Origin: a virus
DNA length: 36,866 nt
Direction: 5' to 3' (one strand)
IMG/VR virus record: IMGVR_UViG_3300042691_010128
Span: 1-36,866 of that record
Part shown: piece by piece, positions 6,981 through 10,465 of the stretch
How the letters are laid out: each line of letters opens with the position of its first letter
Position numbering within the stretch: position 1 is the first letter of the stretch
Made by a program: the position numbers and the translations under genes
Notes under the pieces: model-generated
What the model was told of the DNA's origin: nothing
The model's database searches: none
The model's input: only the letters and a program-made list of their open reading frames with translations

Positions 6981-7181
6981 ATGCCTAAAAAATCACTTCC
7001 CGCCGATTGTATGCCAGCGTGCGTTTCGTGCGCTTTTTTTATGTGCGAACTAAAGGAAGAACTAGGCTTTTGTAGACGCTATCCTCCCATGATTATTGAA
7101 GCGGAAGATGGTTACGATAGTTGCATACCTGTTACCGCTCGCGCTGATTGGTGCGGCGAATTTATACGCAAGGTGAATTAA
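6981..7181 (+). CDS. Small Cys-rich protein (CRRYPP...WCGEF type)
   Basis: This 66-residue protein has seven Cys: C10, C14, C17, C22, C31, C47 and C58. The motifs CRRYPP and DWCGEF are shared by many small phage and bacterial proteins of unknown function in which the Cys residues probably bind a metal ion or cluster. No ribosome-binding site is seen; a candidate promoter lies directly upstream. The stop overlaps the phosphoesterase ATG (TAATG), so the two are likely co-translated. No function can be assigned. Confidence 0.7.
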   Translation: MPKKSLPADCMPACVSCAFFMCELKEELGFCRRYPPMIIEAEDGYDSCIPVTARADWCGEFIRKVN

Positions 7182-8143
7182 TGGCCACTAAAATATCGGA
7201 TGATGATTTTATTGCGACATGGCGTCGGCTGCAATCAGTGACCGATATGGCTAACGAGACAGGCCTAACAATTCGTGCGGTAAATGCGCGTCGTCGCAAA
7301 CTAGAGAAAAATTACGGCACTATTTTGAGCGCAGCAAGCCCGCGCAGTCCTGATTTTAAGATTTCGATACCTGAAAACGGTATTCGGGTTAATTTTGAAC
7401 TTGATAGCGGCACGATTATGGTTGCTAGTGATTGCCACTACTGGCCTGGCATCATATCAACGGCGCATCGTGCGTTCGTATTGTTTGCGAAAGAATTAAA
7501 GCCTAAAGCGATTGTGATGAACGGCGACGTTTTTGACGGCGCGTCAATCAGCCGTCATCCACCTGGCGGCACTTGGGAAGCCACACCCACGGTTAGGCAA
7601 GAACTCGAAGCTTGTCAAGAGCGTTTAGCTGAGATCGAGGCAGCATCATTAAACAGTAAGTTACATTGGACGTGGGGAAACCACGACCAACGCTTTAACG
7701 CCAGATTAGCAGCCCAAGTAGGCGACGGTTTCAAAGGCATAGTTGGCATGAACCTGACTGACCACTTTCCGCGCTGGCGCTTTTCAACGTCTGTTATGGT
7801 TAATGGTAATTGCATGATAAAACATAGGTGGCATAACGGAATCCATGCTATTTATAACAACACCCTTAAGGCGGGTACCTCAATCGTTACCGGCCATCTT
7901 CACTCCTTAAAATGCACGCCTTTCACCGACTACACTGGCACGCGCTACGGCGTCGATACAGGGTCGCTTGCCGACGTCAACGGCCAACAGTTTAGTTACT
8001 CAGAAGATAACGCTCGCAACCATCGGTCGGGCTATGCCGTGCTTACTTTCTATAACGGCAAGCTGTTGCCGCCAGAGTTATGCGAAGTATTAGATGAGGA
8101 AGAAGGCATCATTTATTTCCGTGGAAACGTCTTTAAAGTGTAA
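7181..8143 (+). CDS. Calcineurin-like metallophosphoesterase with N-terminal HTH
   Basis: The 320-residue protein starts at the ATG overlapping the upstream stop (AGGTG 6 bases before); the upstream GTG at 7148 is less likely. Residues 8-45 look like a helix-turn-helix. The phosphoesterase motifs follow in order: D84-x-H86, GDVFD (115-119), GNHD (166-169) and GHLH (238-241). These are the two-metal ligands of the calcineurin/Mre11-like superfamily, so the active site seems complete. The substrate cannot be read from sequence; nucleic acid or nucleotide phosphoesters are plausible given the DNA-binding-like N-terminus. It lies downstream of lysis genes, with the acidic-protein gene next. Confidence 0.88.
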   Translation: MATKISDDDFIATWRRLQSVTDMANETGLTIRAVNARRRKLEKNYGTILSAASPRSPDFKISIPENGIRVNFELDSGTIMVASDCHYWPGIISTAHRAFVLFAKELKPKAIVMNGDVFDGASISRHPPGGTWEATPTVRQELEACQERLAEIEAASLNSKLHWTWGNHDQRFNARLAAQVGDGFKGIVGMNLTDHFPRWRFSTSVMVNGNCMIKHRWHNGIHAIYNNTLKAGTSIVTGHLHSLKCTPFTDYTGTRYGVDTGSLADVNGQQFSYSEDNARNHRSGYAVLTFYNGKLLPPELCEVLDEEEGIIYFRGNVFKV

Positions 8144-8160
8144 AAATCAGCGCGTAATAT
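8132..8160 (+). promoter_or_regulatory. Weak candidate promoter for the acidic-protein gene
   Basis: TTTAAA (8132-8137), a 17-base spacer and TAATAT (8155-8160) overlap the end of the phosphoesterase gene. The predicted start near 8167 gives a leader of about 35 bases before the ATG at 8202. With the strong terminator at 8452-8479 this would let the acidic-protein gene form its own short transcript. The -35 match is modest (4 of 6). Confidence 0.3.
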
Positions 8161-8201
8161 AGCTTTGTGGCCGTGGGGGCTGCATTTAATTGGGAGTTAT
8201 T

Positions 8202-8429
8202 ATGTCTGCTACAATCTTGGTAATTTTGGAAGATGATGAGCTTCAGTTTGCTTACGACGAAGATGGCGCGCTCTGCTACTACGACGAAGAGTTAGACGAT
8301 TGGGTCGAAGATACTGATGTTGACTACGACGACGCCGGCTACGCTTACTACTTCAACGACGAACTGGAAGCATGGTTGTACTTCGATGATGAAGAAGATG
8401 CTTGGCTTGAGTTCGATATCGCAGCTTAA
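8202..8429 (+). CDS. Extremely acidic, aromatic-rich small protein; possible DNA mimic
   Basis: With the ATG at 8202 (GGGA site 6 bases upstream; an in-frame TTG at 8190 is less likely) the product has 75 residues. Of these 28 are Asp or Glu, 15 are aromatic, and none is Lys, Arg or His. A motif of two Tyr, an acidic run and Trp recurs: YYDEELDDW (26-34), YYFNDELEAW (49-58) and a shorter FDDEEDAW (61-68). Net charge near -28 on 75 residues is in the range of phage DNA-mimic proteins such as Ocr that block restriction enzymes or other DNA-binding host factors, though this is no visible homologue. Function is an inference from charge. It is bounded by a candidate promoter and a strong terminator. 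Confidence 0.75.
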   Translation: MSATILVILEDDELQFAYDEDGALCYYDEELDDWVEDTDVDYDDAGYAYYFNDELEAWLYFDDEEDAWLEFDIAA

Positions 8430-8451: not shown

Positions 8452-8479
8452 AGCCCAGGCTCGTTGCCTGGGCTTTTTT
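8452..8479 (+). terminator. Rho-independent terminator, rightward
   Basis: A perfect 9-bp stem (AGCCCAGGC at 8452-8460, GCCTGGGCT at 8466-8474) with loop TCGTT is followed by a run of T to 8479. It closes the rightward late block just before the convergent leftward genes. On the other strand the stem is not followed by T, so it works in one direction. Confidence 0.93.
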
Positions 8480-8488
8480 ATTGCTTGG

Positions 8489-9127: not shown

Positions 9128-10465
9128 TCATTTCAATTCCTCCAATGCAACATCAGATATGGCGCGCTTGTCACGTAACGCGCCGATTATTTTTTCATCG
9201 ATTGTCTTTTCCGCCATAAAGACGTAGACCCATACTGCTCGCAGTTGACCGGAGCGGTGAAGTCGTCCAATGGTTTGCTCGTAGAGTTCCAAACTCCACG
9301 GCAACGACAAAAAGACCATGTGACACCCTCCGTGCTGTAAGTTAAGCCCATGTCCTGCTGATTTTGGATGCACAGCGAGCAACTCCACGTCGCCTCGGTT
9401 CCACCGCTCGATCGCGTTTTCTTCATCCAACGTAACCACCTTGGGATAGCGCCTCTTAATTTCTGCAAGCTCTTCCTGATACATATACGCAATGATCGTA
9501 TTCGCATGTTGGTTTTCCTCTAATAGTTCCTCTAGTCGGTCAAATTTATGTGTGCTAAACCAAATGGCAGTTTTTGTAGTAGCAAACTTGCCTGGTTGAA
9601 TTAATGCTTGTTTTTCTGTCTGGTAAACAAATCCAGACGCCATCTGTTGCAATTTTCCTGTAACTACTGCTGCGTTTGCTGCTATTGCTCTATCGTCGCC
9701 GCCAAACTCAACTACAAAATCGCGCTTCATTTTTGAGTAGTGCGTCATGTCCATCGTGCTGCGTATCTCTACAATATTTAACGGCGGTAACGTGTCGCTG
9801 TACTCGCCAGGCTCTAGCAGATACGTTGCCGGTTTAATCTTCTGCATCACCGCTTGCAAGCCGCCGCGCTTGGGCATCCACTCACCATAATCGCGGTTAA
9901 CCAAAATAAAGTGCTGCTGCATAAACGCGCCCTTACTGCGGCCTAATAACTTTTCATTGATGATTTTGCACTGCCCGAATACGTCTTCTAATCCATTGCT
10001 AGTAAACGATCCGGTCAAGCCCCAACGAATAGCAAACTGATCGATTACTTTATGCAGCGCTTTAAACCTGGCGCCGGATGGATTCTTTAAACGTGTCAGC
10101 TCATCAAACACAATGGCGTCAAAACCCGACACACCGTAATCAGCTAGCCATTGCAAGTTGTCGTAATTAATGACAACGATATCTGACGGATTATCGACAG
10201 CACGCAGCCGCTCTAAGGGGGAACCGACAGCTAGGTTAAGTTTTAAAGTTGGCGCCCACTTCGGTAATTCGACAGGCCACACATCAGTACAAACGCGCTT
10301 GGGCGCCACAACTAAAAATCGTTTTGCGTGGCCGTCTTTAATCATCGCCGCCATTGCTGTTAACGTAATTGCAGTCTTACCGGCGCCGACGGGCGCCAAG
10401 ATCATTGCCTTATCATTCTCATAGAGAAAGTCAGCGGCTTCATCTTGGTACGGTCTGAGTTTCAT
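9128..10465 (-). CDS. SNF2/DEAD-family (SF2) DNA helicase
   Basis: The 445-residue protein is a compact two-RecA-domain ATPase. Motif I is APVGAGKT (24-31), the motif II DExx box is DELT (121-124), motif III is LTGS (150-153), and motif VI is QTIGRLHRSGQ (about 397-407), the Q-x-x-G-R-x-x-R signature of SNF2-like enzymes. It should be an ATP-driven DNA translocase or helicase acting in phage replication or recombination. Its ATG overlaps the methyltransferase stop (ATGA at 10462-10465). Compact SNF2 helicases encoded with VRR-NUC and Cas4-like nucleases are a recurring phage replication set. Confidence 0.92.
   Translation of the reverse strand: MKLRPYQDEAADFLYENDKAMILAPVGAGKTAITLTAMAAMIKDGHAKRFLVVAPKRVCTDVWPVELPKWAPTLKLNLAVGSPLERLRAVDNPSDIVVINYDNLQWLADYGVSGFDAIVFDELTRLKNPSGARFKALHKVIDQFAIRWGLTGSFTSNGLEDVFGQCKIINEKLLGRSKGAFMQQHFILVNRDYGEWMPKRGGLQAVMQKIKPATYLLEPGEYSDTLPPLNIVEIRSTMDMTHYSKMKRDFVVEFGGDDRAIAANAAVVTGKLQQMASGFVYQTEKQALIQPGKFATTKTAIWFSTHKFDRLEELLEENQHANTIIAYMYQEELAEIKRRYPKVVTLDEENAIERWNRGDVELLAVHPKSAGHGLNLQHGGCHMVFLSLPWSLELYEQTIGRLHRSGQLRAVWVYVFMAEKTIDEKIIGALRDKRAISDVALEELK

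Follow-up and report, generated by a model that had tools for sequence, protein, structure and literature searches.

A moron-like cassette encoding a hyper-acidic tandem-repeat protein in aquatic phages

Introduction

The gene at positions 8202–8429 (plus strand) of a virus record encodes a protein of extreme negative charge, which raises the question of what such a protein does and how its gene came to stand at this locus. The window, that is, the whole stretch of DNA that was analyzed, comprises positions 1 to 36,866 of the 36,866-base record. It belongs to a tailed phage in which terminase, portal, polymerase, and endolysin are recognizable, and its capsid protein is ~27% identical to the capsid protein of cyanophage A-4L. 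No near relative of window bases 1–24000 was found among named phages. The phage looks lytic because no lysogeny genes were recognized among the proteins searched. A sequence-only reading of this DNA had proposed that the acidic protein may be a new DNA mimic, which is possible. The main finding lies beyond that reading: the gene is part of a family of mobile, moron-like cassettes that feature a conserved promoter-like block and a 5' hairpin and occur in several phage lineages.

The acidic gene and its product

The gene features an ATG start, a TAA stop, and 75 codons for amino acids. A residue count bears out the composition first read from the DNA, with 28 Asp/Glu, 15 Phe/Trp/Tyr, and no Lys, Arg, or His, and the tandem Tyr/acidic/Trp unit that had been described is present in three copies, YYDEELDDW (residues 26–34), YYFNDELEAW (49–58), and YFDDEEDAW (60–68). 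The net charge per residue is −0.35, compared to −0.09 for the next most acidic of the window ORFs of at least 40 aa, so that this product stands well apart from all others of the window in acidity, and chance does not account for it. Proteins that are 91–100% identical to it are encoded at 10 loci. The differences among these loci are mostly synonymous, with dN/dS values of 0.06–0.28, and for this reason ORF 8202–8429 is a real, conserved gene under purifying selection. The diverged relatives retain its composition. A self-propagating or neutral low-complexity gene that is carried along with useful neighbors would account for the gene traveling near a phosphoesterase, an HNH endonuclease, and a 67-aa gene; however, the dN/dS values and the almost complete exclusion of Lys and Arg from 30 diverged members make this explanation extremely improbable.

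A family of hyper-acidic repeat proteins

Further members were sought with a degenerate DNA pattern for Y-F-D-[DE]-[DE]-x-[DE]-x-W, which found ~20 additional proteins in other phages. Thirty diverse members share the composition and the repeat, and these make up alignment A5 (2,767 residues in all). Over these residues there are a total of 4 Lys/Arg and 11 His, and the net charge of the members ranges from −28 to −56. The unit common to the 30 proteins is a strand/turn unit of the type DEDGxAWxYDEExDxxYYFDEDxDDWxEY, of which each protein has one or two full copies, preceded by N-terminal pieces that vary. The architecture is thus that of a ~10-residue repeat of aromatic strand and acidic turn in variable copy number, and the autocorrelation of the aromatic residues peaks at a lag of 10, as does that of the acidic residues.

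The family has no name in the libraries used (Pfam, NCBIfam, and PHROGs), and it has been overlooked partly because low-complexity filters hide such sequences. A tblastn search of named phages with the window protein and two relatives found nothing, a result that is not counted as absence because the BLAST low-complexity filter masks these queries. In bacterial genomes a protein-based scan found no family member, and a scan with the DNA pattern found one near-copy of the window protein together with other matches that look like unrelated motifs. The near-copy is encoded on a contig (L223) of a proteobacterial metagenome bin, perhaps a phage contig that was binned together with its host. That the hyper-acidic proteins form a previously unrecognized family, encoded in a cassette of their own, is considered very probable.

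Two further features were observed in these sequences. A second type of protein consists of a single repeat unit (DDDGVIWKYDREACVWMYFDEDADEWLLFDEE) followed by a tail that is far less acidic, and it occurs in L030, L053, L064, L115, L118, L119, L127, L129, L143, L159, L178, L182, and L190; in the first three of these it lies ~6–8 kb from the phosphoesterase gene on the opposite strand. Additionally, several of the proteins from L136, L138, L170, L179, L098, L103, L112, L183, L161, and L133 have a C-terminal (A/S)(A/S)W or a similar ending behind the acidic tail. Single-strand-binding proteins have acidic-aromatic tails, of which these C-termini are reminiscent.

Expression signals of the cassette

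The sequence-only reading had placed the gene between a promoter and a strong terminator. The promoter part of this claim is supported in one respect and not in another. A generic sigma-70 scan of the window found no consensus promoter for the gene, while comparison of relatives revealed a conserved, ungapped promoter-like block of 30 bases at 8131–8160 (plus strand), with a −10 element, TAATAT, at 8155–8160. The block overlaps the 3' end of the upstream phosphoesterase gene. The upstream regions of phosphoesterase-, capsid-, and polymerase-linked members align over these 30 bases free of gaps and with constant spacing, with the consensus TTTTGATTTGTNATAATCGTNNTG-TANNAT. Across ~190 loci, every block match that scores at least 21 lies upstream of an acidic gene, and a phage-wide promoter was rejected on the grounds that high-scoring copies occur only there. 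A matrix was trained only on capsid- and polymerase-linked members and then applied to the window, where the block at 8131–8160 ranks second among ~73,700 positions. Its score of 11.4 is not significant genome-wide, as the top five of 20 shuffles had maxima of 12.8–17.5, and since the matrix score alone is not significant, the case for the window block is carried by its position and conservation. These comparisons support a candidate dedicated promoter ahead of the acidic gene, which would permit expression apart from the late operon. Given this block, the idea that expression depends solely on the capsid or lysis operon was set aside.

The 5' hairpin, TGTGGCC-GTGGG-GGCTGCA, is located at 8166–8184 (plus strand), five bases past the −10 element and thus at, or close to, the position where the transcript is expected to start. 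The arms differ by subgroup (GTGGCC/GGCTGC, GCAGCC/GGTTGC, or ACGGC/GCCGT) and the place does not change. Single-sequence folding gives modest scores with a mean z of about −1, so the hairpin is a prediction supported by the comparison of relatives; its arms are misaligned in alignment A6. The hairpin probably stabilizes the transcript. It is followed by a Shine-Dalgarno site, GGGAG, at 8192–8196 (plus strand), and relatives also feature a GGAG-type site. The terminator claim is borne out by a predicted intrinsic terminator at 8452–8480 (plus strand) that consists of a 9-bp stem, a 5-nt loop, and a T-run, and in 33 of 38 relatives an intrinsic terminator likewise lies a short distance past the stop codon. 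Another terminator-like hairpin with a T-run is found at 7016–7034, within the conserved ORF 6981–7181; its sequence is altered in several relatives, and it is for that reason perhaps a coding coincidence.

The order in the main group is promoter-like block, 5' hairpin, Shine-Dalgarno site, ORF, and intrinsic terminator. The block and the hairpin are absent from the L111/L156/L164 and L117/L151 subgroups, which still have the protein. A host-type promoter, a 5' hairpin, and an intrinsic terminator would let the cassette function at any landing site. With signals as portable as these, expression of the cassette need not follow the operon upstream.

Genomic settings and mobility

In the window the cassette follows a metallophosphoesterase gene (7181–8143, plus strand), which is the anchor of the insertion site and was used as the anchor for a comparison of 80 loci. 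An acidic ORF is found within ~310 bases behind the phosphoesterase gene at 22 of the 80 loci, including diverged forms of 72–115 aa. It is missing at the other 58, of which ~54 have enough sequence for it to be seen, and most of the 58 are collinear with unchanged upstream order. In L014, L020, L022, and L023 the pair formed by the phosphoesterase and acidic genes is next to a primase homologue, at a convergent junction that differs from that of the window. Other members are found in other settings: behind a DNA polymerase gene (L091/L101), ahead of the terminase gene (L111/L156/L164), directly or nearly directly behind the capsid gene (L161, L170, L136, L145, L191, and others), and behind a capsid gene of another type (L151/L117).

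The position behind the capsid gene would be expected if the protein were an abundant accessory of the virion or of head assembly, such as a decoration, internal, or scaffold-like protein. This role is quite unlikely, however, as elsewhere the gene sits behind lysis, polymerase, or phosphoesterase genes, it has its own promoter-like block, and it is missing from most of the collinear phosphoesterase loci as well as from named phages with a related capsid. In eight such named phages, most of them isolates, no acidic gene was found near the capsid gene.

Judged from these comparisons, the gene appears to be a mobile cassette among several, unrelated phage lineages and behaves like a moron. The pid gene of phage P22 was called a moron on its presence or absence at one site, its Rho-independent terminator, and its separate regulation (PMC3573128). 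Like pid, the acidic gene is a small accessory gene with what appears to be its own regulation and a predicted Rho-independent terminator at its 3' end, here at 8452–8480 and in the 33 relatives. At the same site relatives have nothing or another insert, and 58 of the 80 phosphoesterase loci are without the acidic gene. Unlike pid, the gene is co-directional with the upstream operon and its phage looks lytic. The cassette is moron-like cargo of apparently lytic aquatic phages.

Two neighbors recur beside the cassette. A companion gene of ~67 aa (FIQKQIxxSERLYxMMLxDHKxRFEKIA) often adjoins the acidic gene and is also found without it; it is located at 9442–9657 in L161, past the phosphoesterase gene in L034, and past the terminator in L014, and it has no PHROG match. 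An HNH endonuclease gene (L109, 4560–5042, minus strand) lies convergent right behind the cassette, and similar convergent genes trail the cassette in other capsid-linked phages. These convergent neighbors could indicate a site at which cargo is exchanged.

Predicted fold and distant resemblances

AlphaFold models are of moderate confidence (mean pLDDT 71–74, pTM <0.5). The window protein is modeled with a mean pLDDT of 71 and six short strands, and L136, a two-unit relative, with a mean pLDDT of 73.6, values of 86–88 across most of the repeats, and seven strands. In the window model acidic residues occupy 21 of the 34 turn positions. In the L136 model the turns comprise 29 residues, 19 of them acidic, and the strands contain 13 of the 14 core aromatics. 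The fold predicted for the family is an antiparallel meander whose short strands are linked by acidic turns, regularly spaced at ~10 residues in these models. This regular meander with its acids concentrated in the turns would provide the elongated charged face on which the mimic proposal depends.

Regularly recurring DEDG-type acidic turns could also belong to an acidic buffer that binds metal or polyamines, or to a calcium-binding repeat protein. This is very unlikely, since it leaves the conserved aromatic rows unexplained and the Pfam matches, listed up to E 10, include no EF-hand, dockerin, or RTX family.

The expected fold resemblance to DNA mimics fared less well than the extended acidic meander itself: the nearest folds, at weak scores, are TCP and OCRE domains, and no known DNA mimic is among the fold matches listed. 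Fold searches gave no significant match. The best PDB matches are the TCP domains of CPAP/SAS-4 (Z 4.5, rmsd 5.8, 70 aligned), at a Z score too low to indicate more than a commonly found arrangement, and the OCRE domain of RBM10 is a lower match (Z 3.0, rmsd 4.1, 64 aligned). The viral matches are headed by unnamed proteins from uncultured phages. As had been noted from the sequence, the window protein is dissimilar to known mimics; neither it nor its relatives have a convincing Pfam or NCBIfam match, and Ocr, ArdA, Arn, UGI, and other DNA-mimic families are not among the matches listed up to E 10. With the A3 profile the best PDB sequence matches are the OCRE domains of RBM5 (E 0.06) and RBM10 (E 0.27), both below significance, and the OCRE match was not repeated in a second profile search with A5. 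Among the weak Pfam matches OCRE recurs most often, in 10 of 30 members with a best E of 0.01, and the cut-off of 24.7 bits for PF17780 was not reached (11.2 bits for L136). A genome search for OCRE found it in none of six records.

The TCP domain forms a single-layer sheet that lacks a core, has PDG turns, and binds prolines through its aromatics (PMC3776556), and the OCRE domain, a small sheet rich in Tyr, presents a negative surface and binds an arginine-flanked proline-rich tail (PMC5127646). The family resembles the TCP (G-box) domain in its antiparallel-strand meander with x-D-G turns, and OCRE in its tandem aromatic repeat, short antiparallel strands, and negative surface. It differs from TCP in that no sequence similarity is seen and hyper-acidity is not a stated TCP feature. 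OCRE has a repeat period of 8 rather than ~10 and is far less acidic, and its context is eukaryotic splicing whereas the family is found in phages. The resemblances are weak leads and do not assign the family to either domain.

Because of the conserved aromatic rows and this weak likeness, the main rival to a decoy function is an aromatic β-sheet peptide binder, OCRE- or TCP-like, that acts as an adaptor or competitor and not as a DNA mimic. Its exposed Tyr/Trp rows and acidic turns would grip a host or phage protein by a proline/arginine-rich tail. The top TCP match, the additional RBM10 match, and the OCRE profile and Pfam matches all favor this role, which is nevertheless somewhat unlikely, given that every match falls under significance or a curated cut-off, that the repeat period is not 8, and that the charge is far beyond what the recognition of one peptide needs.

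A possible decoy for a basic host protein

The preferred reading, which is tentative, is that the acidic protein is a polyanionic decoy. It would be a free-standing or nearly core-less β-meander in which Asp/Glu-rich turns join aromatic strands, so that two acidic edges flank an aromatic ribbon in the predicted fold. Inside the infected cell its partner would be a basic host protein, probably one that binds nucleic acids, for which the candidates are a nucleoid, restriction, nuclease, or transcription factor. Binding through charge and aromatic contacts would benefit the phage.

The charge, the conservation, and the accessory status all fit a decoy. Phage proteins of comparable charge that act as inhibitors include Ocr (PMC7261183) and gp5.9 (PMC9836394, PMC7617805), and the known inhibitor SPO1 Gp44 features an acidic region free of Lys, Arg, and His (PMC8208478). 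The window protein, with 28 of 75 residues acidic and none basic, is like Ocr of T7, gp5.9, and Gp44 in its extreme negative charge, which is kept in the 30 members, and like Gp44 in its acidic stretch without Lys, Arg, or His. It is unlike all three in lacking a sequence or fold match to them and in being built as a tandem repeat of aromatic strand and acidic turn. Several points speak against a decoy. Known DNA mimics were not matched by sequence or by fold, the conserved aromatic pattern exceeds the needs of pure charge mimicry, the weak OCRE/TCP resemblance points to peptide binding instead, and the capsid-adjacent position in many phages suits a virion-related role. A stronger version of the decoy reading is unlikely. 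It would make the protein a nucleic-acid mimic of a new structural class, a core-less β-sheet ladder with aromatic rungs and two rails of acidic turns that is extended by repeats, delivered as a promoter-hairpin-gene-terminator cassette, and able to disarm a basic host protein.

Significance

The family couples a strict composition rule, with almost no positive residues per hundred or so, to an expression cassette that is portable and occurs in several aquatic phage lineages. Should the protein prove to be an inhibitor, its scaffold would be both short and extendable, and its target could be tested. Should it prove to be a TCP/OCRE-like binder, phages would supply an instance of a fold that has so far been described in eukaryotes. 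Under either reading, the family marks cargo exchange among phages that are known mainly from metagenomes.
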